Origin: Frankia alni ACN14a
Lineage (GTDB): Bacteria > Actinomycetota > Actinomycetes > Frankiales > Frankiaceae
Assembly: GCF_000058485.1 (NCBI RefSeq)
Contig: NC_008278.1
Span: 3,094,962-3,158,961, forward strand
Length of the DNA stretch: 64,000 nucleotides
Direction of reading: 5' to 3'
Shown here piece by piece: positions 33,605-59,724 of the stretch. Position 1 is the first letter of the stretch. Every line of letters starts with the position of its first letter. The notes beneath the pieces were generated by a model. It had not been told where the DNA came from. It searched no databases and saw only the letters and a list, made by a program, of their open reading frames with translations. The position numbers and the translations under genes are program-made.

Positions 33605-34708
33605 TCAGGTCAGGGAGCGGGCCAGGGCCTCGGAGTCGAGCAGCAGGCGGCGGACGATGGCGTCGAAGCGGTCGCCCTTGGCCTTCGGTGACAGCCCCTG
33701 GATCGCCTCGGCGACCTTGTACTCGATCATGCAGGCCGCGCGCCACTTGGCGAGCACCGAGTAGTAGCCGATCGTCGAGACGTCGCGGCCGGTCCGCTCG
33801 CCGTAGTAGGCGATGACGTCGTCGCGGTGCGGGAAGCGCCCGGGCGCGAAGTACCGCATGGCGCCGTCGTCCTCCGCCTCGGTGACGAGGTTGTTCGCGA
33901 AGGCGGCGAGGTCGAGCAGGGGATCGCCGATGGTTGCGGTCTCCCAGTCGATGATCGCGGCGAGGCGGGCCGGCGGGCGGTGGTGGAACAGCGCGTTGTT
34001 CGGCGCGTAGTCGGCGTGGATGAGCGCGGGACGCGACCCCGCGGGGACGTTGTCCCGCAGCCAGTCCGCCACGTACGTCAGCCCGGGCAGGTCACGCCGC
34101 TCGTACTTCGGGTAGCGCCGCTGGTAGCCGTCGACCTGGCCCAGCCAGCGGTCCGGCTGGCGCTCGAGGAACCCGTCGGGCCGGCCGAACCCGCCCAGCC
34201 CGACCGCGGTGTAGTCGAGGTTGGCCAGCGCGACCAGCCCGTCGGTCATCGCCCAGCAGATGTAGTGCTGGTCGGGGCCGCCGTCGAAACCCGCCGGCCA
34301 GATCGTCTCGTTCTCGGCGGTGATGGTCGCCGCCCAGCCGTCGACCAGCTCCATGACGTAGAAGCTGACCCCGAGCAGCGACTCGTCCGCGCAGAAGCCG
34401 AGGAACTCCGGGCTCGGCACGTCCGTCCCGGTCAGCGCGCGCAGGACGGTGGCCTCGCGCTGGATCGTGCGCGCGCCCTGCGGGCTGCCCGCCAGGGGCG
34501 GGCTGCGGAAGATCGCCTTCCGGCCGCCCCGGTCCAGGCTCAGGATCAGGTTGGTCGACCCGCCGGAGACCAGGGCCGTCGTCAGGGGCCCGTCGCCCAG
34601 ACTCGGGACGTGCTCGTCCAACCAGCCGGTGAGCGCCGCCACATCGATCAGATTGTTCGCATCCGCCACAGATGCAGCGTTCCACACCTGCGACGGTGAC
34701 GTTCTCAT
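33605..34708 (-). CDS. Phosphotransferase family protein (ACAD10/11-like)
   Basis: 367 aa; the last gene of the minus-strand operon. The kinase-like fold shows the catalytic loop HADYAPNN (231-238; most relatives have HGDY) and the metal-binding IIDWETATIGDP with Asp254. An Arg in RKAIFRSPP occupies the site of the usual nucleotide-binding lysine, as in the branch related to the N-terminal domain of ACAD10/11, found next to acyl-CoA and terpenoid catabolism genes. It more likely phosphorylates a pathway hydroxyl compound than an antibiotic. The start shares a base with the cupin stop (TGATG). Confidence 0.85.
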   Translation of the reverse strand: MRTSPSQVWNAASVADANNLIDVAALTGWLDEHVPSLGDGPLTTALVSGGSTNLILSLDRGGRKAIFRSPPLAGSPQGARTIQREATVLRALTGTDVPSPEFLGFCADESLLGVSFYVMELVDGWAATITAENETIWPAGFDGGPDQHYICWAMTDGLVALANLDYTAVGLGGFGRPDGFLERQPDRWLGQVDGYQRRYPKYERRDLPGLTYVADWLRDNVPAGSRPALIHADYAPNNALFHHRPPARLAAIIDWETATIGDPLLDLAAFANNLVTEAEDDGAMRYFAPGRFPHRDDVIAYYGERTGRDVSTIGYYSVLAKWRAACMIEYKVAEAIQGLSPKAKGDRFDAIVRRLLLDSEALARSLT

Positions 34709-35229
34709 CAGTGCCCGACGGCTCGACCTCCCACGATCACGTACAGCACGACCGCGGGTTCGTCGCGGCGGTTGCGCCAGCCGTGCGCGGCGCCGTTGTG
34801 GACCAGCACGTCCCCGGCTGCAAGCGCGCGTTCCGCGCCGCCGGCCAGCACGATGCAGATCTCACCCCGCAGCACCACGCCGTAGTCGACCGTCTCCGTC
34901 GTGTGAAGCAGGCTGTCGTCGAACGGGGCGGCAGCCGCGTCGTCGACGTCCGCGGGCGGCCTCGCGGCGGGCTCGCGAAGCCCGAACCCGGGCGGATACG
35001 TCACGGAGATGAGGCGGGTTCCCCCCGCAGGCGGGACGGGCTCCTGGTCGAGCCGGGTGCTCTCCGCGCCGCTGCCGGGCACCGAGGGCGGCTCCTCGGT
35101 GGACCACAGGTAGCTCACCTCGAGGCCCGGCCGGCTGTCGTTGGTGATCACATGGGGTGCCGGCCCGTCCTGGACGAAGATCCCGGCACCGTCCGGGCCC
35201 GCGCCCGTCACCACGCGTCGTAGAGCCAC
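34708..35229 (-). CDS. Cupin-domain protein
   Basis: 173 aa. The second half forms a cupin: LLHTTETVDYGVVLRGEI (first metal-binding motif, here degenerate) and LAAGDVLVHNGAAHGWRNR (second motif, with His). The N-terminal part contains a second, poorly conserved strand-rich segment. Such proteins in catabolic operons are often called cupins of unknown role; they may be enzymes or small-molecule sensors. It lies 9 nt after the ferredoxin and is coupled to the phosphotransferase gene. Confidence 0.8.
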   Translation of the reverse strand: MALRRVVTGAGPDGAGIFVQDGPAPHVITNDSRPGLEVSYLWSTEEPPSVPGSGAESTRLDQEPVPPAGGTRLISVTYPPGFGLREPAARPPADVDDAAAAPFDDSLLHTTETVDYGVVLRGEICIVLAGGAERALAAGDVLVHNGAAHGWRNRRDEPAVVLYVIVGGRAVGH

Positions 35230-35238
35230 ATCACATAC

Positions 35239-35433
35239 TTACTCGTCGACGAGGCTCAGCGCGCGCTCGGGGCAGGCGGCGACGGCGTCGCGCGCACGCC
35301 TCTCCTGGCCTGGCGGAATCTCCGGGTCGGTGACGGCGAGGTAGCCCAGATCGTCGAGGGGAAAGAGGTCCTCGGCGGTGGCGTTGCAGCGGGCGTGGCC
35401 CGAGCAGAGCCCGGTGTCGACCACGATCCTCAT
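35239..35433 (-). CDS. Ferredoxin, [3Fe-4S]-type, CxxH motif
   Basis: 64 aa from ATG at 35433 with GGAAAGGAC upstream. The cluster motif is CSGHARC with a distal ACP segment; the position of the usual second cysteine is His. Mycobacterial ferredoxins that serve P450s show the same replacement. Its gene directly follows the P450 gene by 20 nt, so it is very likely that enzyme's electron donor. A matching reductase is not encoded in the operon. Confidence 0.92.
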   Translation of the reverse strand: MRIVVDTGLCSGHARCNATAEDLFPLDDLGYLAVTDPEIPPGQERRARDAVAACPERALSLVDE

Positions 35434-35453
35434 CGGTCGTCCTTTCCGCCGGG

Positions 35454-36662
35454 TCAGGACCCGAACTCCGCCAGGGGCAGGGAGAAGATGCCGTGGACGT
35501 TGCCCCAGTACGCCTGGGGCGCGGTGCCCTCGCCCAGGGCGTAGGCCGGGATGACGCGGTGCCAGCCGGCGAGCGCGACGTTCATCTCGATCCGGGCGAG
35601 GTGGGACCCCAGGCATCGGTGGGGGCCAGCGCCGAACGCCAGGTGCGGGGCGGGCGGCCGGGAGACGAGGTCGACGGTGCCCGCGCCGGCGACGAGCGCC
35701 TCGTCCCGGTTCGCGGCGACCAGCGGGAAGAGCACGAGATCACCGGCTCGCAGCTGCTGCCCGCCGATCTCGATGTCCTGCTTCACCTTCCGGCCGACCT
35801 CGGGCACGGCGTAGAAGCGGAGCAGCTCCTCGACGACGCCGTCGAGCGGCTCGCCGGCGGCGGCCAGCCCCGCGACGTGCCGGCGGTCGGCGTCGTGCGT
35901 CGCGAGGTGGTGCATCGCGAAGGACAGGCTCATCGCCACGGTGTCCAGGCCCGCCAGGAAGAGCAGCAGGGAGCAGTTGACCAGCGCGTCGTCGGGGGCC
36001 GGCGCACCGTCGAGCTCCCAGTCGAGCATCGCGCCGAGCAGGCCGTCCCCCCGCTCGCCGCTGTCCCGGCGACGGGCGATCTCGGCCTGGAAGTACCCGA
36101 CGACCGAGAAGATCCCGCCGATCTGCCGGTCCTTGTCGAAGTCACCGCTGTCGGTCGGGGCGAGCGCCTGCTTCTCCCACTCCAGGAAGGTCGGCAACTC
36201 GTCGATCGGCAGCCCCATCAGCTCGAGGAAGACCACCGTCGGCAGCTCCAGCGCGAAGTCCTCGACGTAGTCGCATTCTCCCCTGGCGCGGATCGCGGCC
36301 ACGAGCTCGGTGGTGCGTTCCTCCAGGCGCGGCCGCAGCAGCCCCATCGTGCGCGGAGAGAAGTACTGCGCCAGCAGCCGCCGCCACTGCGTGTGCTCCG
36401 GCGGGTCGAGCTGGATGGGAATCATCGACAGCGGCGGGTCCGGGCTGAGCGGGGTGATGACCTCGCTGGAGAAGACCGCCGGATTCTGCAGGCACTCACG
36501 CGCGAGATCGTGGTCCAGCACCATCCAGTAGGAGCGGTCGGGTTCGGTCACCCTGACGATGCGGTGTAAGGAACGCAGCGCGTCGAAACGGTCGCCTGCG
36601 TCGCCGACCGTGCCGACTCCGACGATGCGGTGGTCGGTGATCTCGGTGGTGGGCGTTGTCAT
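35454..36662 (-). CDS. Cytochrome P450
   Basis: 402 aa. The I-helix oxygen-binding motif is AGLDT, the ExxR pair is in EELLR, and the heme loop is FGAGPHRCLG with Cys350 as thiolate ligand. Soluble bacterial type; hydroxylation of a terpenoid, steroid or other hydrophobic compound is the usual role in such operons. It is 29 nt after the SDR gene and directly before its ferredoxin. No family number can be assigned by eye. Together with the SDR and ALDH it suggests stepwise oxidation of a methyl or methylene group to alcohol, aldehyde or ketone and acid. Confidence 0.95.
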   Translation of the reverse strand: MTTPTTEITDHRIVGVGTVGDAGDRFDALRSLHRIVRVTEPDRSYWMVLDHDLARECLQNPAVFSSEVITPLSPDPPLSMIPIQLDPPEHTQWRRLLAQYFSPRTMGLLRPRLEERTTELVAAIRARGECDYVEDFALELPTVVFLELMGLPIDELPTFLEWEKQALAPTDSGDFDKDRQIGGIFSVVGYFQAEIARRRDSGERGDGLLGAMLDWELDGAPAPDDALVNCSLLLFLAGLDTVAMSLSFAMHHLATHDADRRHVAGLAAAGEPLDGVVEELLRFYAVPEVGRKVKQDIEIGGQQLRAGDLVLFPLVAANRDEALVAGAGTVDLVSRPPAPHLAFGAGPHRCLGSHLARIEMNVALAGWHRVIPAYALGEGTAPQAYWGNVHGIFSLPLAEFGS

Positions 36663-36691
36663 CGCGGATTCTCCTCAGTCGTCCCGGGCCG

Positions 36692-37510
36692 TCAGCGGAC
36701 TGTGAAGCCGGCGTCGAGGGCCCACTGGGTCCCGGTGATGAACCTCGCCTCGTCGGAGACCAGGTACGCCACGGCGCCTGCGATGTCCTCGGGCTGAAGA
36801 ATGGGGATCGGCAGGGCGTTCTGCATCGCGGAGATGTTGGTGTCCGCCTTCGCCATCGCCGCCTGCATCGCGGCGTTCATCGTCATGCCCGACACGACCC
36901 CGGTCGGGTGGATGGTGTTGACCCTGATCATCTCGGCGGCGTACTGGTTGGCCAGCACCTGCATGTAGCCGACGAGCCCCCGCTTGGCCGCCGTGTAGGC
37001 CTGGGCACTCGGCTCCTCGCTCGCGGTGCCCTTCAGCCCCGCGCTCGAGGAGGTGATGACGATCGAGCCGCCACGCCCACCCTCCCGCAGGCGCGGCAGG
37101 GCCACCTGGACGGTGTTGAACGTGCCGGTGAGCAGGATGTCGATGGTGTCCTGCCACTCGCGTGTCGGGTCGACGCTGTCGCCGACCCGCAGGATGCCGG
37201 CATTGGCCAGGATGATGTCGACCCGACCGAACGCGGCGTACCCCTCGTCGAAGACGGCCCGAAGCGCGGTCTGGTCACGGACGTCGGCCCTGCCGATGAT
37301 CGCCCGGCGGCCCTCCTTCTCGACCAGGTCTGCGGTCTCCGCCAGCTCGGCCCAGGTGCCGCACGGGTAGTTCATCGACGGGATGTCCGCACAGATGTCG
37401 ACACCGATGATGTCGACGCCCTCCCGGGCGAGGCGCACGGCGTGCGCGCGGCCCTGGCCGCGGGCGGCGCCGGTGATGAAGGCCACGCGCCCTTCGAGCT
37501 TTCCGGTCAT
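36692..37510 (-). CDS. Mycofactocin-type short-chain dehydrogenase
   Basis: 272 aa. The N-terminus TGAARGQGRAHAVRLAREG and the following DICADI are the signature of the mycofactocin-coupled SDR subfamily, which holds its nicotinamide cofactor tightly and passes electrons to mycofactocin. The active site has the Ser region SSSAGL and Tyr-x3-Lys in YTAAKRG. It would oxidise the alcohol formed by the P450. No mycofactocin biosynthesis genes are in this window. Neighbours: ALDH upstream (123 nt), P450 downstream (29 nt). Confidence 0.9.
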   Translation of the reverse strand: MTGKLEGRVAFITGAARGQGRAHAVRLAREGVDIIGVDICADIPSMNYPCGTWAELAETADLVEKEGRRAIIGRADVRDQTALRAVFDEGYAAFGRVDIILANAGILRVGDSVDPTREWQDTIDILLTGTFNTVQVALPRLREGGRGGSIVITSSSAGLKGTASEEPSAQAYTAAKRGLVGYMQVLANQYAAEMIRVNTIHPTGVVSGMTMNAAMQAAMAKADTNISAMQNALPIPILQPEDIAGAVAYLVSDEARFITGTQWALDAGFTVR

Positions 37511-37544
37511 GTGTTCCTGTCCTGTCTCGCGTGCGGAAGAAAAG

Positions 37545-37633
37545 GCCGGGGCCGAGGTGAAGTCGGGGCCGAGGTGAAGTCGGGGCCGACGGGGAACCGG
37601 GCCGAGGGATGGCCGGCCGAGGTGAGGCCGGTG
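37545..37633. repeat. 17-nt tandem repeat between SDR and ALDH genes
   Basis: Two and a half copies of CGGGGCCGAGGTGAAGT are followed by decayed units up to the ALDH stop. It lies within the operon and may form a weak attenuating structure. Non-coding. Confidence 0.6.
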
Positions 37634-39085
37634 TCAGACGGTGATGCCGACGCTGCGGATGCGCAGGAACTCCTCGATGCCCTGCCGGCCGCCCTCCTTG
37701 CCGACGCCGGAGAGCCCGAACCCGCCGAACGGCCGGCCGACCTTCAGATTGGTCGCGCCGTTGACGAGCGTCTCGCCGGCGTCGAGTTCGGCGGCGACCC
37801 GCAGCGCCCGCTGCAGATCCCGGGTCTGGACGTAGGAGGACAGCGCGTACCGGGTGCCGTTGGCCAGCGCGACCGCTTCTTCCTCGGTACGGAACTTGAA
37901 GATCGTCAGCACCGGGCCGAAGACCTCGGTCTGGGCGAGCTCGGAGTCCGGGTCGACGTCGGCGAAGACGGTCGGCTGGATGAAGTAGCCGGCCCGGTCG
38001 ATCCGGCTCCCGCCGGCCAGCAGGGTCGCGCCCTGCTCGGCGGCCCGCTCGATCATCCCGAGAATCCGCTCGACGGCCGCCTGGTTGACGACCGGACCGG
38101 AGGCGACGGCGGGATCGAACGGGTCACCGACCGGGATGTTCTGCGCGATCAGCGTCACCCGCGCGACGACCTCGTCGTACACGTCCTCGTGGACGATCAT
38201 CCGGGTCGCGAAGGCACAGCCCTGGCCGGAGAGCGCGATCAGGGAGAACGTCGTCCCGATCTGGCAGGCCACGTCGAGGTCGGCGTCGGCGAAGACGATG
38301 TTGGCGGACTTGCCGCCGAGTTCGAGGACGGCGGGCTTCATGCTGGGCGCGCACGCCTCGAGAATCCTGGTCGCCGTGGCCGGGCCACCGGTGAAGGTGA
38401 CCTTCCTGACCAGCGGGTGGGAGACGAGTTGCGCGCCCGCCTCGGCGGTGCCGGGCAGGACGTTGACGACGCCGGGCGGGAACCCGGCCTGCTCGACGAG
38501 GTCCATGAAGAGCTCCCCGCTGAACGGGGTGAGCTCGGAGGGCTTGACCACCACGGTGTTGCCGGCCGCGACCGCGGCCGGGATCTTCATGGCCAGCGAG
38601 ATGAGCGGCCCGTTCCAGGTGATGATGATCCCGACGACGCCGTACGGCTGGGCGAGGGTGTAACCGAGCTCGCCGTCCTGGACGGGGTTGCCGGTCAGCT
38701 CACCCTGGATCTTGTCGGCCCAGCCGGCGTAGTAGCGGGTCCACTCCGCCGAGAGCACCGGGAAGGCCGCCCCGACGGTGAGCGGTGTGCCGTTGTCCAG
38801 CGCCCCGAGCCGGGCGAACTCGTCCGCGTGGGCCTCGATGAGGTCCGCGAGCCGGACGAGCAGGGCGCGGCGCTGGGCGGGCGGGGTCCGCTTCCAGCTC
38901 TGGAACGCCTCGTGCGCCGCGGTGACGGCGAGGTCGATCTCGTCCTTGTCCGCGAGCGGGATCTGCGCGTCGACCTCGCCGGTCGCCGGGTTGACGTGAC
39001 CGTAGGTGCCGCCCGAGCCGGACGCACGCCTCTCACCGTTGACGCGGAGGTGGACCTTCGGCGGGGTGCGGTCGATGCCTGACAT
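37634..39085 (-). CDS. Aldehyde dehydrogenase (NAD-dependent family)
   Basis: 483 aa from ATG at 39085, chosen for GAGGAG seven nt upstream and the start MSGIDRTPP; an upstream ATG at 39178 would add an unconserved stretch covering the promoter. Catalytic residues: Asn158 (TWNGP), Glu255 (LELGGKS) and Cys290 (SGQGC), with FTGG at 231-234 in the cofactor site. It oxidises an aldehyde to an acid. First gene of the operon running to the phosphotransferase-like gene; divergent from a TetR regulator. Confidence 0.95.
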   Translation of the reverse strand: MSGIDRTPPKVHLRVNGERRASGSGGTYGHVNPATGEVDAQIPLADKDEIDLAVTAAHEAFQSWKRTPPAQRRALLVRLADLIEAHADEFARLGALDNGTPLTVGAAFPVLSAEWTRYYAGWADKIQGELTGNPVQDGELGYTLAQPYGVVGIIITWNGPLISLAMKIPAAVAAGNTVVVKPSELTPFSGELFMDLVEQAGFPPGVVNVLPGTAEAGAQLVSHPLVRKVTFTGGPATATRILEACAPSMKPAVLELGGKSANIVFADADLDVACQIGTTFSLIALSGQGCAFATRMIVHEDVYDEVVARVTLIAQNIPVGDPFDPAVASGPVVNQAAVERILGMIERAAEQGATLLAGGSRIDRAGYFIQPTVFADVDPDSELAQTEVFGPVLTIFKFRTEEEAVALANGTRYALSSYVQTRDLQRALRVAAELDAGETLVNGATNLKVGRPFGGFGLSGVGKEGGRQGIEEFLRIRSVGITV

Positions 39086-39112
39086 GGCGCTCCTCGGGAC
39101 GTTCCCGCTCAT

Positions 39113-39197
39113 ACGACGGAGGTGACTAAGTGACCTCAGTGAACTGTGGCGGTGCTCACGTGTCAAGGTATCGGACAAAGTCGTCCGTAAACGGTGC
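39113..39197. promoter_or_regulatory. Divergent operator/promoter region
   Basis: Two inverted repeats are seen. GAGGTGAC-TAA-GTGACCTC (39115-39133) matches at 7 of 8 arm positions. CGGAC-N6-GTCCG (39172-39187) has perfect arms. A minus-strand TTGACA (the complement of TGTCAA near 39160) could be the -35 of the ALDH operon. The TetR encoded next to it is the obvious candidate binder. Confidence 0.45.
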
Positions 39198-39274
39198 GCG
39201 GAGATCGGCTCCGCGGGGCCCGCGGCTCGCCGCTACGGTGAGGATCGGCGCGCGGACACGGCGGGGGGAGATCC

Positions 39275-39916
39275 ATGGGTGACGGCGTGACAGCCGCGCG
39301 GCGGTCCCCCGGCCGGCCTCGCCGGGCCGACGCCGAGCGGCGCATCCTCGACGCCGCCATCGACGAGTACCTCGAACGCGGCGCGAGCGGCTTCACCATC
39401 GACGGCGTCGCCCGGCGCGCCGGGGTCGGCAAGTCCACCGTCTACCTGCGCTGGCCCGACCGCGACACGCTCCTCGTCGACAGCGTCCTGGCGCGGTCCC
39501 GCGCGATCGAGGACGTCGACACCGGATCACTGCGCGGCGACCTGGTCGCCCTGAGCGTGAACATGTTGCGCTTCCTGCTCGACCCCGTCGGGTTCGCGAC
39601 GCTGCGCCTGACGGTCGAGGCCGTGGCCAGCGGTTCCACCCGCGAGGTCACCACCGGGGTGGCCGATCGCCATCGCCGGGCCGCGGGCCTGGTACTCGCC
39701 CGGGCCGCCGAGCGCGGGGAACCCGTCAACCCGGGCACCCAGGCCCGCGTCGTCGAGTGCCTCTACGGCGCGATCACCATGAAGGCGCTGGCGCACGGTC
39801 TCGAGACGGACGCGACCAGCGAGGCGACCATCGTCGCGGCCTGTGTCGAGCTGGTCGACCTGCTCCTGCCGCTGCTGCTGGAGCACGTCCGACCCCCGCC
39901 GGACCCGGCCCGGTGA
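39275..39916 (+). CDS. TetR-family transcriptional regulator
   Basis: 213 aa with GGGGGGAGAT just before the ATG. The N-terminal DNA-binding domain is typical: AERRILDAAIDEYLERGAS, then the HTH FTIDGVARRAGVGKSTVYLRW. The ligand domain is helical and not specific. Its divergent position suggests it represses the ALDH-SDR-P450 operon until the substrate or a product binds. TetR and the photolyase genes converge with 37 nt between them. Confidence 0.92.
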   Translation: MGDGVTAARRSPGRPRRADAERRILDAAIDEYLERGASGFTIDGVARRAGVGKSTVYLRWPDRDTLLVDSVLARSRAIEDVDTGSLRGDLVALSVNMLRFLLDPVGFATLRLTVEAVASGSTREVTTGVADRHRRAAGLVLARAAERGEPVNPGTQARVVECLYGAITMKALAHGLETDATSEATIVAACVELVDLLLPLLLEHVRPPPDPAR

Positions 39917-39953: not shown

Positions 39954-41507
39954 TCAGGGCGGGCCCGCGCCGCGGCGGTGTTCGGCGGCGGTGACCGCGG
40001 CCCGGTCGGCGAGGCGGGCGAGGCCCGCGAGCGGGCGGCGCAGGCGGGGGTTGGCGGCCAGCGCGCCGGCGTTGCGGTCGAGGAAGGCCCAGTAGCCGGC
40101 GGTGAAGGGGCAGGCGTCCTCGCCGAGGCGATGGGACGGGTGGTAGCGGCAGCCGCCGCAGTAGTCGCTCATCCGGTGGATGTAGGCGCCGCCGGCGGCG
40201 TACGGCTTCGTCGCCATCAGGCCGCCGTCGGCGTACTGGCTCATCCCCACGACGTTGGGCGCCATCACCCAGGCGTAGCCGTCGACGAAGCTCTCGTGGA
40301 AGAAGTCGGTGAGCGCCCGCGGGTCGTAGCCGCGTTGCAGCGCCCAGTTGCCCAGCACCATCAGCCGGGGGATGTGGTGGACCCAGCCGCGCTCGCGGAC
40401 CCCGGCGAGCACGTCGGACAGGCAGGCGGCGCCGACCGCGTCCGCGTCGAGGTCGTCGAACCAGCGTGGCAGCGGGGTCCGCGCGCCGAGGGCGTTGCGG
40501 TCGGCGTAGTCCTCGCCGGCCCACCAGTAGATCCCCCAGACGTACTCGCGCCAGCCGAGGACCTGGCGGACGAACCCCTCGACGCTGGCGATCGGCGCCT
40601 CGCCGCGCCGGTACGCCTGCTCGGCCGCGGCGACGACCTCCAGCGGGTGCAGCAGGCCCAGGTTGAGCGCCGGCGAGAGGGTGGAGTGCGCCATCGCCCA
40701 GTCGCCGGCGAGCATCGCGTCCTCGTAGGGGCCGAAGTCGGCGAGGCGATGGCGGACGAACCAGTCCAGCGCCTGGCCCGCCTCCGCCCGGGTCGCGGCG
40801 AACCGGCGCGGGCCGTCGACGCCGCGGAACTGCGCGTGGCCGTCGCGTTCGAGCCGGTCGAGATGCTCCCGGACCTCGGCGTCGACCTCGGTCTCCGACG
40901 GCGACCACGGCTCGGGCAGGTCGAGGTGGGCGCGCCGGGGCGGGGGGTGGCGGTTGTCGTGGTCGAAGTTCCACCGGCCGCCGGCGGGGGAGTCGCCGTC
41001 CATGAGCACGCCGAACCGGCGTCGCTGCCAGCGGTAGAAGTCCTCCATGAGCAGCCGTCGACGACCGCCCGTCCCGCCACGAGCACCGTCGCCGTGACCG
41101 TCCCACCGGCCGTCGCCGTGGCCGTCGCTGTGGCCCTGGTCGGTGCCGCCGTGGGCCCAGGTGGAGAAGTCGTCCCGGCTCGTGGCGGTGTAGGCCGTCG
41201 GCACGACCGTCACCCCGGGCAGGTCGGTGACGAACCGCCGCGCCGCCCAGGAGGTCGGGTCGGGCACCTCCAGGGGCTCGCCGTAGTCGGCGACGGCCTC
41301 GCCGTAGGTCGCGCCGATCCGGTGGTCGCAGCGGTCGCCGAGCTCGCGCGCCCGGTGGCGCAGGGCCGAGAGCAGCAGCTGCGCCTTCTGCCGGTGGAAG
41401 CGCCGCCGGGCCAGCACCCGGGTCGACTCGACGAGCAGGACCGGCTGGTCGGGATCGTCGAGGAAGTGCGGCCCGAGCTGGTCGGCGAACAGCCAGCGGC
41501 GCATCAT
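39954..41507 (-). CDS. FeS-type bacterial photolyase/cryptochrome (PhrB-like)
   Basis: 517 aa from ATG at 41507 (MMRRWLFADQLGPHF). Four cysteines at 362, 450, 453 and 466 have exactly the spacing of the [4Fe-4S] ligands of Agrobacterium PhrB (Cys350, 438, 441, 454). The blocks MEDFYRWQRRRFGVLMDG, WREYVWGIYWW, MSQYADGGLMATKPYAA and the C-terminal MSDYCGGCRYHP are family hallmarks. Members repair (6-4) photoproducts or sense light using FAD and a lumazine-type antenna. An unusual ~27-residue Gly/Asp/His insert (GHSDGHGDGRWDGHGDG) lies near residues 150-175. Confidence 0.93.
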   Translation of the reverse strand: MMRRWLFADQLGPHFLDDPDQPVLLVESTRVLARRRFHRQKAQLLLSALRHRARELGDRCDHRIGATYGEAVADYGEPLEVPDPTSWAARRFVTDLPGVTVVPTAYTATSRDDFSTWAHGGTDQGHSDGHGDGRWDGHGDGARGGTGGRRRLLMEDFYRWQRRRFGVLMDGDSPAGGRWNFDHDNRHPPPRRAHLDLPEPWSPSETEVDAEVREHLDRLERDGHAQFRGVDGPRRFAATRAEAGQALDWFVRHRLADFGPYEDAMLAGDWAMAHSTLSPALNLGLLHPLEVVAAAEQAYRRGEAPIASVEGFVRQVLGWREYVWGIYWWAGEDYADRNALGARTPLPRWFDDLDADAVGAACLSDVLAGVRERGWVHHIPRLMVLGNWALQRGYDPRALTDFFHESFVDGYAWVMAPNVVGMSQYADGGLMATKPYAAGGAYIHRMSDYCGGCRYHPSHRLGEDACPFTAGYWAFLDRNAGALAANPRLRRPLAGLARLADRAAVTAAEHRRGAGPP

Positions 41508-41711
41508 CCGACGGTGACACACCCGCCGCGACCGGCCAACTCGATCGTGCGCCGCCCGCGCACACTCCGCCTCGCCCTGCCACGAGGTCGGCCAGGTCCC
41601 CCAGCAGCCGCGGCGTGCCATCCACCGCCTCACCAGATAATCAACGTTGTTGACGACGTGTGATCGGCACTGATGATCATGGACGGTCGGTGGGCACCAC
41701 GGTGACGGTCG

Positions 41712-50186: not shown

Positions 50187-52157
50187 TCAGCCGGTGGGGA
50201 CGAGGAGCTGGGTCGTCGCCAGGTCGCGGTAGAGCGGGTCGGTCTCCAGCAGTTGCGCGTGGCTGCCGAGGGCGCGTACCCGGCCCGCCTCCATGACGAT
50301 GATCTGCCGGGCGCCGACGACGGTGGACAGCCGGTGGGCGACGACCAGCACCGTCGTCGTGCTCGCCGCGGCGGCGATGGTGTCGCGCAGCGCGAGCTCG
50401 TTGCCGGCGTCGAGCGCCGAGGTCGCCTCGTCGAGCAGCAGCAGCCGGGGCCGGCGCAGCAGGGCGCGGGCGATGGCGATGCGCTGGCGTTCACCGCCGG
50501 ACAGGGTGCCGCCGCGGTGGCCGATCCAGCCGTCGAGCCCGCCGGGCAGCGCCGCCACGAACAGCTCCAGCCGGGCCAGGCGCAGCGCCTCGTGCAGGTC
50601 CTCGTCGTCGACGCCGGTCAGGCCGAGCGTGAGGTTCTCGCGCAGGGAACCGGCGAGCACCGGAGCCTCCTGCTCGACGTAGCCGATCGAGCGGCGCAGC
50701 TGTGCCAGCGGCCAGTCCCGCACGTCGCGGCCGTCGACGAGGATCCGCCCGGCGGTGGCGTCGTAGAACCGTTCGAGCAGCAGGAAGATGCTCGACTTGC
50801 CGGCGCCCGACGGGCCGACGATGGCGGTCATCCCGCCGGGCGGGACGGTGAACGACACCCCCCGGTGCACCGGCGGGAGGTCCTGCCGGTAGGCGAACTC
50901 GACGTTGTCGAAGGCCACCGTCGCGCTGGCGGCCCGGCGGTTCGGCCCGGTGTTCGTGGCGGACGCGGCGCGCCTGGTCAGCGCGGCGCGGCGGACGACG
51001 ACGGGCCCGCGCCTGAACATGGGGCCGCTGGTGGCGGGATCGCGGTGGCCGCCGTTGGCGCGTCGGCCGGCGGTGGTGCGTCGGCCGCCGTTGGTGCCTC
51101 GGCCGCCGTTGGTGCCTCGGCCGGCGGTGGTGCGTCGGTCGAGGGAGCTGCGTCCCCGGGCCGCGGTGGGTTCGGCATCCAGGCGCAGCACCGCCTGGAT
51201 GCGTTCCGCGGCCGCCCCGCCCGCCCTGAACTGACCCCAGGCGCCGACCAGGGTGGTCACCGGCTGGGTCAGGAAGAACATGTAGAGCAGGAACGCGATC
51301 AGGTCGGCGATCGGCAGGTCCCCGGCGGCGACCCGGGCGCCGCCGACGCCGAGCACTCCCAGGAACGACGCCTGCATGAGCATGCCGGCGCTCGCCCCGG
51401 TGCCCGCCTGCCAGGCGGCGACGCGCAGCCCCCGGCGGAACGCCGTCTGCGCCGCGTCGGCGAGCAGGCCGATCTCGTGGTCCTCCGCTCCGGAGGCCTT
51501 CACCGTGCGCAGGGCACCGAGGTCGCGGTCGAGCAGGGTGGCCATGTAGCCGACGGCGGCCTGCGCCTGCCCGGTGGCCTTGCCGATCCGCGACGCCGAC
51601 CAGCGCACGCTGGCACTCATCAGCACGACCGACGACAGCGTGACGCCGAGCAGGACCACGTCGATGAGGGCCATCATCACCAGCGCCCCGACCAGGGCGA
51701 TGGTCGCCGTGCAGCTCGTCACCAGGGCCTGGGTCGTGACCTGGCGCAGCAGCGTGGTGTCGCCGACGAGCCGCGACATCAGATCACCGGGCTTGATCTC
51801 GTCGGTCGCGGACAGCCGCAGTCGCAGGATGCGTTCCACCAGGCGGATGCGGACGGTCCGCACGAGGGTCTCGCCGACCGACTCGATGAGGAAGAATCCG
51901 CCGGCGGACACCGCCGTGCCGAGCAGGACCGCGACGGTCAGGACGCCGAGCAGCCGCCCGACCGGCTGGTCGGCGGTGAGCCGGGCCAGGATGTGCTGGG
52001 CGATGATCGGCTGGGCCAGCGACATCGACGTGCCGAGCAGGGTGAGCACCCCGCCGGCGAGCAGGACGCGGCGCGAGCCCGCGGTGAAGCGGAGCACGAA
52101 CCGCCCGGCCGGCAGCGGCTGGCGGCGCGCCGCGGCGGCGCGGCGGGCGCGGCTCAT
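50187..52157 (-). CDS. ABC exporter, fused membrane and ATPase domains
   Basis: 656 aa from ATG at 52157, which overlaps the glycosyltransferase stop (ATGA). Residues ~28-310 are a six-helix exporter domain. The ATPase has Walker A GPSGAGKSS (448-456), signature LSGGERQ (552-558), Walker B LLLLDE (572-577) and the H-loop His. The two are joined by an unusually long ~80-residue linker with RGTNGGRG repeats (345-370). It likely dimerises. Its place at the end of the lipid-synthase operon suggests it exports the glycosylated lipid, but MsbA-type proteins move many substrates. Confidence 0.93.
   Translation of the reverse strand: MSRARRAAAARRQPLPAGRFVLRFTAGSRRVLLAGGVLTLLGTSMSLAQPIIAQHILARLTADQPVGRLLGVLTVAVLLGTAVSAGGFFLIESVGETLVRTVRIRLVERILRLRLSATDEIKPGDLMSRLVGDTTLLRQVTTQALVTSCTATIALVGALVMMALIDVVLLGVTLSSVVLMSASVRWSASRIGKATGQAQAAVGYMATLLDRDLGALRTVKASGAEDHEIGLLADAAQTAFRRGLRVAAWQAGTGASAGMLMQASFLGVLGVGGARVAAGDLPIADLIAFLLYMFFLTQPVTTLVGAWGQFRAGGAAAERIQAVLRLDAEPTAARGRSSLDRRTTAGRGTNGGRGTNGGRRTTAGRRANGGHRDPATSGPMFRRGPVVVRRAALTRRAASATNTGPNRRAASATVAFDNVEFAYRQDLPPVHRGVSFTVPPGGMTAIVGPSGAGKSSIFLLLERFYDATAGRILVDGRDVRDWPLAQLRRSIGYVEQEAPVLAGSLRENLTLGLTGVDDEDLHEALRLARLELFVAALPGGLDGWIGHRGGTLSGGERQRIAIARALLRRPRLLLLDEATSALDAGNELALRDTIAAAASTTTVLVVAHRLSTVVGARQIIVMEAGRVRALGSHAQLLETDPLYRDLATTQLLVPTG
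51045..51140. repeat. Coding repeats in the ABC exporter linker
   Basis: Imperfect 18-21 nt units (such as GTTGGTGCCTCGGCCGCC) encode Arg/Gly/Thr/Asn repeats between the membrane and ATPase domains. They are in frame and keep the gene open. Confidence 0.65.
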
Positions 52158-53521
52158 CCGACCGGGCTGCGCGCCGCGGCGAGGCGCTGCAGGTGCTCGG
52201 CGGCGGCCGCGGCCCCGCCCGCCGCCTGGAACGAGGCACCGACGCGGGCCGCGGCCGACCGGTAGCGGGGATCGTCGAGGACCTCGCGGACGGCCGACGC
52301 CACGATCGTCGGCGTGGCCCGGGCGAAGCGCAGCCGGATGCCCGCACCCGCGTCCACCACCTGCTGGGCGATGACCGGCTGGTCGTCCCGGATCGGCGCG
52401 ACGACCAGCGGCACGCCGTGCCCGAGCGCCTCGCAGACCGTGTTGTGCCCGCCGTGGCAGACGACCGCCGCCGCTCGCGGCAGCAGGTCGACCAGCGGCA
52501 GGAACCGCGCGGCGATGCCGCCGTCCGGCAGGGCGGCCGGGTCGACGGCGCCCAGCGGGTCGGCGATGACGGCCTGCACGCCGTCGCCGAGCGTGCGCAG
52601 CGCCGCCGCGCACGTTCGCAGGAACTCCCCGCTCACCTGGCCGTTGACCGTCCCGAAGCTGGTCACCACGAGCCGGCGTCCCGGATCGAGCCGCCCCCAC
52701 GGGAATGCCTCGGCCGCCGCCGAGCCACCCGGTTCCGGCCGACCCGGTTGCGGCCGACCCGGTTGCGGCCCACCCGGGCCGCTGCCGAGGGGAGCTGGAC
52801 GTGGCAGTGGCAGCGACGGGCCGACCCAGGCGGTCGGCGGCCCGTCCGGGCCGATGAGCGAGTCGCCGCCGGGCGGCCCGGCCAGCGCCTGCGTGGTGAA
52901 CGCGACGACGAGATGAGGGGACAGCCGCAGCGTGCCCGGCGTCGGCGATCCGCCGGCCGCGGCCGGGTCGGCCCGCACCGGGCTGGCGGTGGGGGCTGCG
53001 TCGGCGAGCCGGGTCGGGGTGGCGAGCCGGGTCGGGGTGGCTGTGCGGGTGATGAGCCCGTCGAGCAGGTCGTCGAACCACCGCTGGACCTTCGGGGTGG
53101 CGGCGAAGGTGTCCCGCAGCGGGCCCGACGTCGTCGCCGACGTCGCCCACGGCCGGCCCAGCCGCGCCGCCGCGAGCGGCCCGGCCAGCGCCTGCATGTC
53201 GCAGACCAGCACGTCCGCGGCCGACCGGACGGCCGCCTCGACGACCGCCGGATAGGTCGCCTCGGCCAGCGGGACGAGGAACTCCTCCCACAGGAAGCGG
53301 ACCCCGGCGTAGCCGCGCAGCTCGGCGCCGCGGATGTCGACGTCGACCGGTCCCGCCAGGCAGGGGTGAATCTCGGCGCCCGATCCGGCCAGCCGCCGCA
53401 CGATCGACTCCTCGCCCGACCAGACCACCCGGTGGCCGCGGTCGCGCAGCCGGTCGGCCACGGCGACCAGCGGGGTGATGTGCCCGGCCAGCGGCGGCAC
53501 CACGAACAGGAAGGTGCTCAC
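52154..53521 (-). CDS. GT1-family glycosyltransferase (MGT/UGT-like)
   Basis: 455 aa from GTG at 53521, overlapping the hydrolase stop (GTGA). The N-terminus MSTFLFVVPPLAGHITPLVAVADRL-type region carries the acceptor-side His. The donor domain has VVCHGGHNTVCEALGHGVP and the DQP motif, as in enzymes that glycosylate polyketides and lipids. A ~30-residue Pro/Gly-rich repeat (GPQPGRPQPGRPEPGG) and an earlier TRLATPTRLA repeat separate the domains. It is coupled on both sides in the six-gene operon, so it very probably adds a sugar to that pathway's product. Confidence 0.92.
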   Translation of the reverse strand: MSTFLFVVPPLAGHITPLVAVADRLRDRGHRVVWSGEESIVRRLAGSGAEIHPCLAGPVDVDIRGAELRGYAGVRFLWEEFLVPLAEATYPAVVEAAVRSAADVLVCDMQALAGPLAAARLGRPWATSATTSGPLRDTFAATPKVQRWFDDLLDGLITRTATPTRLATPTRLADAAPTASPVRADPAAAGGSPTPGTLRLSPHLVVAFTTQALAGPPGGDSLIGPDGPPTAWVGPSLPLPRPAPLGSGPGGPQPGRPQPGRPEPGGSAAAEAFPWGRLDPGRRLVVTSFGTVNGQVSGEFLRTCAAALRTLGDGVQAVIADPLGAVDPAALPDGGIAARFLPLVDLLPRAAAVVCHGGHNTVCEALGHGVPLVVAPIRDDQPVIAQQVVDAGAGIRLRFARATPTIVASAVREVLDDPRYRSAAARVGASFQAAGGAAAAAEHLQRLAAARSPVG

Positions 53522-54435
53522 GCCCCCTCACCGGAGGGGACGCCCACCGCCTGGTGCCGGTGCACCCAGTCGATCGTCAGTTCGCGGACGCGCCGGTGCG
53601 ACTCGACGAGCACCGAATGGTCCTGATCCGGCACGATCACCGTGTGGCAGTCGGGAAGAACGCTCTGTAACAGATAGGGGTCCTCCGCCTGGAAGCCGTC
53701 GCTGCCCAGGATGCTCAGCACCGGCTGCTGGATGCGGGCCAGGTCCTCCAGGTCGAGCAGCGGGCCCTGCGGGATCTCGTCGGCCATCGACGTCTCCTGC
53801 AGGCGCCGGTAGGCCAGCCGGGACAGCCGGACGTAGTGGGAGCCGAAGGTCTTCTGCAACCAGGCGTAGGTGTCCTCGCGGCCGAGGTCGCGCCGGGTGT
53901 TCTCCAGCATCAGCCCCACCCGGTCGGCCCACGGCTGCGTCGGCGGCTCGGCCTCGATCGTGACGATGCTCGCCACCCGGTCCGGGTGGGCGGCCGCGAA
54001 GGCATAGGCGATCGTGCCGCCGAAGCTGTTGCCCACCAGGTGCACCGGCTCGTCGATGCCCAGGGCTGCCAGCAGGCCGGCGAGATCGGCGACGAAGTCA
54101 CCGACGGTGTAGCCCCGCGCGGGCCGGCCGCTGTTGCCGTGCCCGCGCAGGTCGTAGAACACCGCGTCGATGCCGGCGGCCGCCAGTGGGGCGGCCATCG
54201 TCAGGTAGAAGCTGGCCAGGCTGTCGGTGCCCAGGCCGTGCACGCAGACCAGCGTCGGCGCCGCGCCCGCGGGCCGGGCCGGGTCGCCGAGGTCGGTGCT
54301 GGTGGTGGTGGCGGCGGGGGCGGGGGCGGGGGCGACACCGGGGCCGGGCGCTGCGAGCTCGCCCCGCTGCTGGCGGCGTTTGCCCCGTTCGTGGAGGTAG
54401 TGGAGGTCGTTGCCGTTGACGTCGATGATCGGCAC
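53518..54435 (-). CDS. Alpha/beta hydrolase
   Basis: 305 aa. Oxyanion region VHGLG (65-69), nucleophile Ser137 in GNSFGG, acidic residue in ILGSDGF and His in QDHSVL complete the triad. A ~35-residue Pro/Ala-rich insertion (25-60) lies before the second strand. Lying between the acyl carrier protein and the glycosyltransferase, it could act as a thioesterase releasing the acyl chain or as a transesterase; sequence cannot tell. It begins 2 nt after the ACP stop. Confidence 0.88.
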   Translation of the reverse strand: MPIIDVNGNDLHYLHERGKRRQQRGELAAPGPGVAPAPAPAATTTSTDLGDPARPAGAAPTLVCVHGLGTDSLASFYLTMAAPLAAAGIDAVFYDLRGHGNSGRPARGYTVGDFVADLAGLLAALGIDEPVHLVGNSFGGTIAYAFAAAHPDRVASIVTIEAEPPTQPWADRVGLMLENTRRDLGREDTYAWLQKTFGSHYVRLSRLAYRRLQETSMADEIPQGPLLDLEDLARIQQPVLSILGSDGFQAEDPYLLQSVLPDCHTVIVPDQDHSVLVESHRRVRELTIDWVHRHQAVGVPSGEGA

Positions 54436-54437
54436 GG

Positions 54438-54746
54438 TCAGTCCACGCCTGCCGGGGCGCCCAGCCGGGAGCGGACGAACGCCACGATGTCGCCCACGGT
54501 GAGCGCGATGACCTCGGTGAGATCCTTCTCGGCAAGGAACTCGGCGAGACTGACGTTCTCGCCGTACCGCTCGGCGAGCATGCCGCCGAGCGTGACCAGG
54601 TCGATGCTCTCCATCTCCAGGTCGTCGTGGAAGGCCGTGGTCATCTCGACGCGCACGTCGCCCAGGCCGTATTTCTCCAGGATGCGGGCGATCATCGCGC
54701 CGATCTCGGCGAGCAGCGTGCCGGACAGCTCGTCATCGTGCGTCAT
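54438..54746 (-). CDS. Acyl carrier protein
   Basis: 102 aa. The phosphopantetheine attachment site is Ser47 in DLEMESIDLV. The size and acidic helices are standard. Its start lies 14 nt inside the end of the large synthase gene, so translation is coupled. It is a free-standing partner for the two multidomain synthases, which would explain why the middle synthase shows no carrier domain of its own. The ATG has AGGAAT-type purines upstream. Confidence 0.94.
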   Translation of the reverse strand: MTHDDELSGTLLAEIGAMIARILEKYGLGDVRVEMTTAFHDDLEMESIDLVTLGGMLAERYGENVSLAEFLAEKDLTEVIALTVGDIVAFVRSRLGAPAGVD

Positions 54747-57700
54747 GGTGCGATTCCTCTCGACTGGGGGTGCCTGTCGTCCAGGCGACCACGTACCGGT
54801 GCCGCGTCCCCGCGGTGGCGTGCCCCTGCTGCGCGGCGGGCGCGTCGATCTCGGCGTAGCCCACGGCGTACCGCTGCGGCGGCGGCGCGCCAGGACCGCC
54901 GTCACCGCCGTCCGGGTCGGCGCCGACCGCGACGATCAGCGTGCCGTCGGGGCCCGTGGCCACGACCCGGGCAACGGCGTGACCGCCGGCCCGGCTCGCG
55001 GCCTGCCGGGCGGCGGCGAACCGGGCCCGCCAGCGGGCCGCCGCCTGGTCGCCTTCTGCCCGGCACTCTCCGCGCAGCCGGCGCAGCAGCTGTCTCTCCG
55101 CGGTGTCCGCGGGGTCCGCGACGGCCGGCCCGGCCGGGGGATGGGGCGTAGCCGGAAGGGCGGGGTCGGCCGGGTCGATCCTGGCGAGCGCGATGCCGAC
55201 GCCACCGCCGCGTCCCTCGCGCGCGGGGCGGGCGAGGGCCACGGCCAGTCCGGCGTCGTGGGCGACCGACAACGCGAAGGGCGCCAGCGCGCCGCCGTGA
55301 GCCCCCGTCACCGTCGTGCTGGCCACCACGTCAGCGGTCCCACCGGCGCCGGTTCCACCGGGGCCGGTCGCACCGGGGCCGATCACCGCGTCGGTGACGT
55401 GCAGCTCGGCGGGGAACAGGGGGCCGTGGCCCGCCGCCCACAGCCGGGTGCGCACGGCGTCCTTCGCCGCGATCCGGCGCAGCAGCCAGGCGCGCCGCGC
55501 CGGCGGCGGGGTCGCGTCGTGCACCGCCCGCTCGGCGGCGCCGGTGACGCTGCCCAGGACCAGCTCCCGCGTCGCCAGATCGGGCCACTGTTCGGTGACG
55601 CGCACCCAGCCGCCGGGCTGCGCCAGCGCGAACGGGTGCCGGTCCGGATGGCGGAACGCCTCGTCGAGCGCCGGATCGAGGCCGAAGCGGCGGTCCACCC
55701 AGCCCTCGACCTCGGCCCAGACCTCGGTGCCGTCGACGAGCTGCAGGTGGGCGTGGACCCACTGGTCGTCCATCCAGGTCACCCACGCCTGGCAGGTCAC
55801 CGGGGTGCCCGGCGCCGGCTCCGGTCCGTACAGCCGCACCCCGCCGATGCGCACCGGGAACAGCACCAGCCCGTCGCGGGCCTGGGTGCGGATCCAGTAG
55901 CCGAGCAGCTGGCCGGCGGCGTCGAGCAGCGAGCCGGGTGCGCGGGTGCCGGTGAGCACCGCGCGCACGCCGTGGGCGCTGTGGCCGAGCAGGGCCGTCA
56001 CGCCCTGGAACGCCGGGCCGTGGAACATCCACCGTTCGCGGTAGAAGTCCCGCGCGTTGATGATCGGCGGCTGCTCGGCGGCCGGGTCGACCGGCCAGCG
56101 CGCCGGCCGGGACGCCGGATAGCGATCGGCGACGACGACCTGGGCGCTGGCGTAGCCGGCGAACGTGACCTGCAGCCGGTCGGGCCCCGCCGGCGCGATC
56201 CTGACCGCCACCTCCCGGGTGGGGGTGGCGGGCAACCAGGCGTCGAAGCGGGCGTCGGCGACGCCGACGGCGATCAGCCCCGACGCCCGCTCGGCGGCGT
56301 CCATCATCAGCCGGACGGTCGTCGTCGCCGCCACCACCGGGCGTCGGTCGGCGTCGTCGGGCCAGCCGGGGCGCTGCGCGTGCAGTGCGTGGTCGAGCAG
56401 GTGGGGCATCGCCTCCAGGGAGACTCGAAGGATCGCCTCCCAGCCGGCGCCGCTGCGCGTCGGAGTGCTCAGCGCGGGTTCGGTCGGCCGCGGTGGCGCG
56501 GCGAAGGCGCTGGCCAGCACGGACGCGGCGGTCTCGGCGGTGTCGTCGAGCAGGGCCATGAGCTCGCCGGCCAGGGGATCGCGGGCGGCCCACGCGGCCA
56601 GCGGGCTCGCCGACCGGGCCGGCTCCAGCCTGGGCAGCGCCGACGGGTCGAGGTGGACCGACGCCGCCCCCAGATCGAGGCGGACCAGCGGGCCACCGCG
56701 GCGACCCGTCGCCCCCGCACCGCCCGCGCCGCCCGCGCCGCCCGCGCCGCCCGCGGGGGTCTCGGGGGTCGCGTCGACCGCGGGAGTCGCCGGGACAGCC
56801 GCACCGCCGGCGGGAAGGGGAGCAGGCGGCGCCGTACCGACGCCCGGGGAGTCCAGGGCGGCGAAATCGGGGTCGCCGTGCTCCACCCACAGGGCGACGG
56901 CGAGCCGGCGCAGCTGCCCGAGCCCGTCGCGTTCGGAGCTGTTCGCCGCGATCGTCAGGTGCGGTGTCGACTCCAGGGTGGCGTCGACGAGCCCCCCGAG
57001 TCGTCCGGGCCCGACCTGCACGAACACCCCGACGCCGGCGGCGGCCATCGCCTCGACGACCTGCCGGAACAGCACCGGTTCGAGCAGGTGCCGGACGAAC
57101 AGCTCGCGGATCGCGTCGGTGTCGTCCGGATACGGCGAGGCGGTCGTGGCCGACCACAGCTCGATCTGGGGCGCCCGGCGGATCCGCATCCGCTGGGTGC
57201 GTTCCCGCAGTCCGGCGAGGTAGGGCCGCAGCATCGGGGTGTGAAAGCCGGAGCGGAACGGCAGGATCTGCACGACGACGTTGCGTCGGCGCAGCCCGCG
57301 GGCGAGCTCGGCGATCCGCGCCGGCGGTCCGCACACCACCGTCTGCGTCGGGGCGTTGTCGTGGGAGAGCACGACTCCGGGATGGTCGGCGATCGCGGCC
57401 AGGGCGTCGTCGTGCGAGCAGCTCAGCGACGCGTAGTCCACCTCGGGCACGGCACCGTCGTACGGGTCGGCGCCGAAGATGTCGGCGTCGACCTCCGCCT
57501 CGTCGAACAGGCCCGCGGCGAACATCGCGCTCCACTCGCCGATGCTGTGCCCGGCCACGGCGTCGGGCTCGACGCGCAGCCGGCGCAGCGTCCGGTCGAG
57601 CACGCGACTGGTGGCCAGCACGCTGGTGCCGTGCGTGCCCAGGCCGTCGGCGGACAGCCGCGGCGGCGCGAACCCGAAATGCGCGCACACGTCGTCGAGC

Positions 57701-59667: not shown

Positions 59668-59724
59668 CGTGGTCGGACTCCTTGGACCGGGAGGGACGGG
59701 CGGGGACGGGGCCGCGGCGGCCGG

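Follow-up and report, generated by a model that had tools for sequence, protein, structure and literature searches.

What is a phosphotransferase doing at the end of an operon of oxidative enzymes? The question is raised by a 64,000-nucleotide stretch of the Frankia alni ACN14a genome (positions 3,094,962 to 3,158,961 of NC_008278.1; hereafter the window), which sits in a single contig of 7,497,934 bases. Six genes on its minus strand encode, in order of transcription, an aldehyde dehydrogenase (ALDH), a mycofactocin-type short-chain dehydrogenase/reductase (SDR), a cytochrome P450, a CxxH ferredoxin, a cupin-domain protein and an APH-fold kinase, and a TetR gene stands opposite on the plus strand. 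An earlier note on this DNA had no pathway to name in which a dehydrogenase of this kind is combined with a phosphotransferase. We propose one, to which the evidence points without proving it: an inducible catabolic operon whose kinase would be a hydroxyacyl-CoA kinase, feeding a phosphorylate-and-eliminate entry into beta-oxidation. We put the probability of this reading at a little under one half (about 0.48).

The earlier description of six co-directional genes with small gaps, facing a TetR gene, held up well. All seven genes were found at or near the places it gave, and their order and strand were confirmed:

39275..39916, plus strand: TetR-family regulator (Pfam TetR_N and TetR_C_11)
37634..39085, minus strand: aldehyde dehydrogenase, 483 aa (PF00171, 514 bits; ATG at 39085 after GAGGAG)
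37545..37631, no strand: 17-bp tandem repeat, 5.3 copies, in the 123-bp ALDH-SDR gap (TRF)
36692..37510, minus strand: mycofactocin-coupled SDR, 272 aa (TIGR03971, 337.1 bits against a cut-off of 300)
35454..36662, minus strand: cytochrome P450, 402 aa (PF00067, 87 bits; AGLDT, EELLR and FGAGPHRCLG motifs)
35239..35433, minus strand: small ferredoxin, 64 aa (CSGHARC...CP motif in the translation; Fer4_15 on a longer open reading frame)
34708..35229, minus strand: cupin-domain protein, 173 aa (PF07883, 31 bits against a cut-off of 27)
33605..34708, minus strand: APH-fold kinase, 367 aa (PF01636, 108 bits), the proposed hydroxyacyl-CoA kinase

From ALDH to kinase the intergenic gaps are 123, 29, 20 and 9 bp, and the last junction is a 1-bp overlap. 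The first gap varies in length among Frankia operons. On one side the operon borders on the divergent TetR gene; on the other, beyond the kinase, it meets a convergent SDR gene whose end is at 33564, so the transcription unit would end at the kinase. In the list of open reading frames the ALDH begins with a TTG at 39178, but the ATG at 39085 is co-located in eight homologous regions, and with this start two palindromes described below lie outside the gene.

In the proposed scheme, TetR would most likely repress the operon through two palindromes around the promoter and be released by an inducer that is probably either the substrate or one of the products. A hydrophobic substrate would be hydroxylated by the P450, which the operon's ferredoxin (probably a [3Fe-4S] protein) would supply, the mycofactocin-coupled SDR would oxidise the resulting alcohol, and the ALDH would convert aldehyde to acid. 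The acid would be joined to CoA and enter beta-oxidation. The APH-fold kinase would then phosphorylate a hydroxyl, probably at C4, of a hydroxyacyl-CoA, and a dehydrogenase of the ACAD10/11/LvaC type encoded elsewhere in the genome would eliminate the phosphate to give an enoyl-CoA. Between them, these two enzymes would remove a hydroxyl that is impassable to ordinary beta-oxidation enzymes. The starting points are the gene content and its conservation, the operator-like palindromes, the intact kinase motif, the mycofactocin genes and dehydrogenases with an ACAD10/11-like signature. We infer from them the order of reactions, the kinase substrate, the supply of ligase and dehydrogenase in trans, and repression by TetR.

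The kinase carries the argument. It matched the ACAD11 kinase domain at 88.6 bits over residues 20-270 and keeps the catalytic Asp of HxDxxxxN; its LIHADYAPNN aligned to LVHGDFKLDN of 8v3v, and the aspartate reads A in the 8v3u chain. According to excerpts of PMC12440821, D220 is catalytic in the ACAD11 kinase, and R626, H634, R637, an HCMR motif and D753 mark the dehydrogenase domain; R626, H634 and R637 are described there as missing from conventional acyl-CoA dehydrogenases (ACADs), and HCMR as specific to ACAD10/11. The same excerpts name LvaA and LvaC as bacterial counterparts of ACAD10/11, with which the accessible part of PMC11342911 agrees. These likenesses point to, without proving, a kinase of the LvaA/ACAD11 type acting on hydroxyacyl-CoA.

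Another origin for such a protein would be an aminoglycoside-type resistance kinase that came by chance to stand at the end of the operon. Its membership of PF01636 would suit this. At E 0.001 its solved relatives were only 9o56, 3dxp and two ACAD11 sequences, and 9o56 is titled aminoglycoside phosphotransferase; the other solved matches, however, are ACAD11 and a putative acyl-CoA dehydrogenase. The gene is also kept in all six operons of closely related Frankia, and we consider a resistance kinase highly improbable. An antibiotic-resistance role was rejected on the APH(3') model, which scored 25.8 bits against a cut-off of 205.

A hydroxyacyl-CoA kinase would need a partner dehydrogenase, and the genome has candidates. 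At E 1e-6 the genome holds eight matches to the kinase including itself. Four of the seven paralogs (L146, L147, L149 and L150) have, within about 0.7 kb, an ACAD with both the Arg-His-Arg spacing and the Asp motif: RLAGGRLHHAMR with DGPTEAH, RLGGGRIHHAMR with DGPTEVH, RLGPARMTHCMR with DGASETH and RLTPARLTHCMR with DGPTEVH, in locus order. The search patterns for these motifs, R-x4-R-x2-H-x2-R and DG[PA]xE[VTA]H, were set after the sequences had been seen. No motif-bearing dehydrogenase stands beside the three weakest paralogs. Nine of the 13 genomes of the genus, including all six that have the operon, have at least one relative of the L147 dehydrogenase at E 1e-80; within the genus, the ACAD10/11-like motifs themselves were checked in the window's genome alone. 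A stricter DNA search for ADGPDE, which we took beforehand to be the ACAD10/11 catalytic motif, was discarded: it gave three places in the genome, none of them in an ACAD by the translated frames, and was too strict for DGPTEVH, DGPTEAH or DGASETH. In a later comparison, ADGPDE was found at that place in ACAD11.

Two other loci in this genome may be recorded here. At L146 (7135-10680; G000:C1 about 3860134-3863679) a kinase, an SDR and an ACAD10/11-like gene form a trio; the gene of the mycofactocin precursor is about 6.5 kb away. At L053 (6761-11983; G000:C1 about 4446760-4451982) there is a second P450 cluster, with a divergent LysR gene, a DUF7064/7065 protein, an APH kinase, a P450 and an ALDH. 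Its P450 is 46% and its ALDH 37% identical to those of the operon, and its kinase-P450-ALDH part recurs in five other Frankia (L037, L039-L042).

Pairing of kinase and dehydrogenase is also frequent in six other actinomycete genomes, which gave 32 matches to the kinase at E 1e-30. Together with the window genome's own kinases and two further loci they make up 39 non-operon kinases, 24 of which we labelled by hand as paired, meaning that a neighbouring dehydrogenase has at least one of the two motifs; both motifs were present for 17. Three kinases (L207, L211 and the second one at L186) went into the unpaired class despite a motif-bearing frame that overlaps or lies 2.8 to 3.8 kb off. In a tree from 48 sequences, minus two fragments shorter than 250 aa and one duplicate locus (L066 = L200), the operon kinases form one clade inside a 23-row group (support 100/99) that includes the L146 and L147 kinases. 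Eleven of the 17 other rows in that group carry the label paired, and its inner order is unresolved.

The array itself is well conserved among close relatives. We searched 35 genomes of the family with the P450 at E 1e-60; several are drafts, in which absence is no proof. The P450 occurs at 89-96% identity in five further genomes of the genus, which makes 6 of 13 when the window's genome is counted. One genome of another genus, Frankia sp. EI5c, has it at 68%, and 13 more genomes gave only matches of at most 41%. In a phylum-wide sample of 396 genomes searched at E 1e-85, it was found in the window's own genome only. The nearest named relatives of the window's genome are Frankia sp. QA3, F. 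torreyi CpI1 and other Frankia. All five other Frankia with the P450 (L047-L051) have the array from TetR to kinase, with protein identities of 84-99%. The cupin is absent or cut to its tail in L048 (6704-6842) and L049 (5701-5798). L050 (4675-4896) has lost its ferredoxin along with most of the cupin. The kinase, P450, SDR and ALDH are still open in these three operons.

Across the genes, the ratio of mean nonsynonymous to mean synonymous divergence (dN/dS) ranged over 0.17-0.42. TetR and the cupin (three sequences for the latter) reached about 0.4; SDR, ferredoxin, P450, ALDH and kinase stayed at 0.17-0.23. By recurrence in five other Frankia and low dN/dS, both judged from sequence, the array is more than a chance assembly. 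With the gene losses just described, they indicate that the enzymes, including the kinase, are kept and that the cupin is dispensable. The strains with a full operon are presumably isolates from alder or related hosts; a link to the host is possible, and is confounded with kinship.

Farther away, the cassette changes its company. An SDR-based scan kept 79 loci from 115 relatives. Actinomadura physcomitrii has three TetR-ALDH-SDR-P450 copies on different scaffolds (L062, L063, L064), two of them identical over 4.35 kb and the third about 90% identical to these. In L062, the TetR, ALDH, SDR and P450 are 60, 82, 74 and 72% identical to those of the window. Downstream of the Actinomadura P450 lie a frame that resembles an alpha/beta hydrolase by eye and a 129-aa frame without a Pfam match; in L062 an AMP-binding ligase follows on that side, and two enoyl-CoA hydratases lie upstream. 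Further upstream in one copy (L215) are an APH kinase, an SDR and an ACAD with RLGGGRVHHAMR and DGPTEVH. Nocardia harenae has in a row a mycofactocin-type SDR (71%), a P450 (36%), an SDR, an APH gene (35%) and an ACAD that matches ACAD11 (8v3u) at 448 bits and has the HCMR motif.

EI5c keeps ALDH, SDR, P450 and ferredoxin, with an AMP-binding ligase and an acyl-CoA dehydrogenase as neighbours; TetR and kinase are not at the cassette, and an APH gene at 38% identity lies about 7.5 kb off. Mycobacterium sp. E796, Nocardioides sp. Iso805N and two Rhodococcus have SDR and ALDH at 66-81% with no close P450 in the stretch examined, which for Nocardioides ends about 1.9 kb past the SDR; E796 has a P450 at 29% with a ferredoxin at 51%. 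Most of the cassette's neighbours, as predicted from their sequences, are of the catabolic-route type.

Several observations weigh against a hydroxyacyl-CoA kinase pathway. The Frankia operon contains no acyl-CoA dehydrogenase of any type and no CoA ligase, so these two steps would have to act in trans. Among the four motif-bearing dehydrogenases of the genome, two read HAMR rather than HCMR, and the one at L150 had 4hr3, a putative dehydrogenase that shares these motifs, as its only match at E 1e-60, and did not match ACAD11. A kinase with an ACAD10/11-type gene stood in the examined flank of just one of six contexts with SDR and ALDH at 66% or more: that of Actinomadura, the others being EI5c, Mycobacterium E796, Nocardioides, Rhodococcus JCM 9791 and Rhodococcus HM1. 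Next to the cassettes of EI5c and E796, the dehydrogenases carry neither of the two ACAD10/11 motifs. The Actinomadura kinase is only 27% identical to that of the Frankia operon, so the slot there is filled by a different APH member. The operon kinases sit on a long branch (1.2 changes per site), and the kinase may have changed its substrate. Finally, there is a polyketide synthase region at a distance of about 15 kb (13-24 kb) from the TetR gene.

The first and the last-but-one of these observations would suit a kinase that acts before any CoA is attached. It would phosphorylate the small alcohol (a terpenol or the like) that the P450 produces, and so trap or activate it in a catabolic or detoxifying operon. 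An operon with a kinase and no CoA enzyme looks like this, as does the long separate branch. On the other side stand the genome's own paralogs, of which four out of seven are paired with ACAD10/11-like dehydrogenases, and the APH kinase with a dehydrogenase of this type near the core genes in both Actinomadura and N. harenae. We regard a free-alcohol kinase as unlikely, though it is the foremost competitor of the hydroxyacyl-CoA kinase.

The polyketide synthase region raises a different possibility, that P450, SDR, ALDH, cupin and kinase are tailoring enzymes that decorate a specialised metabolite, perhaps one made by the region at 52154-63924. The synthase genes span 54733-63924, and from 45712 and 52154 onwards there are glycosyltransferases and a hydrolase; the content comprises ketosynthase, acyltransferase, KR and carrier domains, two glycosyltransferases and a hydrolase. 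Region and operon share the window, and they stand in the same order in Frankia sp. QA3 (L222, L223), the one other genome viewed that far. Ferredoxins of the CXXHXXC class also serve P450s in secondary metabolism as well as in catabolism, according to the part of PMC6237146 available.

QA3 is a close relative in which the whole neighbourhood is conserved, however, and the linkage therefore says little. Photolyase-related, LysR, MFS and methyltransferase genes intervene between operon and polyketide region, the operon itself has no scaffold enzyme, and in relatives elsewhere the core is adjoined by genes for CoA ligase, enoyl-CoA hydratase or acyl-CoA dehydrogenase. The polyketide region may be a mere neighbour. 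Finding it raised our estimate for a biosynthetic role, which we still hold to be improbable, and slightly lowered those for the catabolic operon and for the wider actinobacterial route suggested below. The gene beside TetR in this interval (39954-41633) encodes a deoxyribodipyrimidine photolyase-related protein.

How would the catabolic operon with its hydroxyacyl-CoA kinase be controlled? The earlier note had seen inverted repeats between TetR and the operon, and two palindromes, common to Actinomadura, indeed lie inside 39113-39197. The features proposed for this region are:

39172..39187, no strand: palindrome O1, CGGACAAAGTCGTCCG, 6 of 8 pairs, proposed TetR operator (alignment of eight intergenic regions)
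39161..39166, minus strand: TTGACA between the two palindromes, possible -35 element for the operon's promoter (read by eye; a suggestion only)
39121..39135, no strand: palindrome O2, GGTGACTAAGTGACC, 6 of 7 pairs, proposed second TetR operator (alignment of eight intergenic regions)

Both palindromes come from the cross-species alignment of TetR-ALDH intergenic regions (six Frankia and two Actinomadura copies), in which they are two conserved islands; a generic inverted-repeat finder missed them. A simple scan for sigma-70 consensus promoters and terminators reported neither. O1 and O2 occur at the equivalent place in the window, L047-L051 and L062-L064 (six Frankia and three Actinomadura copies), 52-53 bp apart, and were not found in the EI5c, E796 or Rhodococcus loci. 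The co-located TetR is 84-92% identical in the five other Frankia and 60-62% in Actinomadura. Within O1, the pair that is broken differs: it is an inner pair in the window and an outer pair in Actinomadura, and each of these is intact in the other. Such differences are compatible with one kind of protein reading both sites.

The patterns used to search for O1 and O2 were built after the alignment had been seen. O1 matched once in the window against 0.01 expected, and genome-wide at two places with no mismatch; O2 matched once in the window and at that single place in the whole 7.5-Mb genome. With one mismatch allowed, O1 gave 55 hits per strand against 28 for a reversed control and is thus not distinctive when relaxed. 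Relaxed patterns also matched unrelated places (O1 at L160, L190 and L218; O2 at L200). In 5000 paired shuffles, an O1-like pair arose in 17, an O2-like pair in 1, and both together in none; these thresholds were set post hoc to the observed values, a first threshold of 13/16 lying above the 12/16 of the real O1 pair. From the two sites, TetR would bind at O1 and O2 and repress the operon. The idea of an oxidative operon under a divergent TetR thus gains support from synteny and from two conserved palindromes.

The oxidative half of the scheme draws on the remaining genes. The SDR had been taken for mycofactocin-dependent, which agrees with its predicted TIGR03971 assignment above the cut-off in a genome that has MftA (53.5 bits), MftC (668 bits) and MftD (722 bits), all above their cut-offs. 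MftC is at 3870602-3871612, with the MftA-type peptide and MftD nearby. The gene mftC is present in 12 of the 13 genomes of the genus, including all six with the operon; G002, the sole one without it, has no operon. The available portion of PMC3023750 reports a mycofactocin system with 10 TIGR03971 members in F. alni ACN14a and its absence from CcI3.

The P450 has full heme and I-helix motifs and 4dxy as its best solved match (177 bits), a structure we take to be CYP101D2. The ferredoxin, whose gene is 20 bp from that of the P450, has the CXXHXXC(X)nCP motif of P450-linked ferredoxins. The cupin matches 3es1 and 8x0u, and the SDR's solved relatives include carveol dehydrogenases. The likeness to 4dxy and to carveol-dehydrogenase-type SDRs allows a terpenoid substrate, and no more than that. 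The terpenoid or steroid-like substrate first suggested therefore keeps a terpenoid as a permitted choice; neither likeness fixes the substrate, which is still a guess.

In the literature we searched, which left out most subscription papers, we found no paper joining mycofactocin to an SDR, a P450 and a ferredoxin, papers that bring mycofactocin together with a phosphotransferase and a dehydrogenase were by their titles on other subjects, and there was nothing on a mycofactocin P450 in Frankia, an actinobacterial 4-hydroxyacyl-CoA kinase, or Rhodococcus LvaA with levulinic acid. The part of PMC10520049 available, on F. alni genes that answer a plant peptide, has no name beginning FRAAL28 and is uninformative for the operon. 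The parts are of known kinds, and their combination was not met in the literature searched.

If the proposal is true, a role follows for a kind of APH-fold kinase that is frequent in the actinomycete genomes examined (as the 32 matches in six genomes illustrate) and has one solved relative titled as an aminoglycoside phosphotransferase. One mycofactocin-dependent dehydrogenase would gain a likely physiological context, and a small operon with two predicted operators would offer a route to the inducer and hence to the substrate. In a plant-symbiotic soil bacterium, the operon would serve to oxidise and break down a compound that is oily and may be made by plants. The guess about regulation has gained strength, and a previously unexplained kinase now has a testable role. 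More tentatively, and with less confidence than in the operon itself, we suggest that some actinobacteria join mycofactocin/P450 oxidation to an LvaA/LvaC-ACAD10/11 branch and so have a complete, regulated pathway for branched or cyclic, possibly plant-derived compounds, the Frankia version being trimmed to six genes that borrow a ligase and a dehydrogenase encoded at other places in the genome.

Each part of this operon resembles a known system. As in divergent TetR-repressed operons, palindromes lie in the shared intergenic region and are conserved with the regulator. CYP101D-type P450s provide the best solved match of the Frankia P450 and are too distant for the substrate to be transferred; the partner ferredoxin of CYP101 is of the [2Fe-2S] type, a class other than that of the operon's ferredoxin. 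The closer likeness for the latter is to M. marinum Fdx1, Fdx5 and Fdx8 and Mtb FdxE, which share its motif, similar size (64 aa here; 61-65 aa tabulated for P450-linked CXXHXXC(X)nCP ferredoxins) and position adjoining a P450 gene (PMC6237146 and, for FdxE, PMC9868604, both in the portions available). Unlike in those systems, the gene is missing from one relative operon (L050), where another ferredoxin may serve. The SDR resembles TIGR03971 enzymes such as the carveol dehydrogenase of Rhodococcus erythropolis DCL14 in its score above the cut-off and in a genome with MftA, MftC and MftD (PMC3023750, in part), and differs in sitting in a P450/ALDH/kinase operon.

For the kinase, the comparison is with LvaA and LvaC of the Pseudomonas putida lva operon and with mammalian ACAD10 and ACAD11, the lva genes being likened by description only (the accessible parts of PMC12440821 and PMC11342911). 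The Frankia kinase differs from these in its divergent sequence and in being joined to a P450, a mycofactocin SDR and an ALDH. It is like them in its APH fold with the catalytic Asp, and in having candidate partner dehydrogenases, which are found elsewhere in the Frankia genome and near similar core genes in two other genera.

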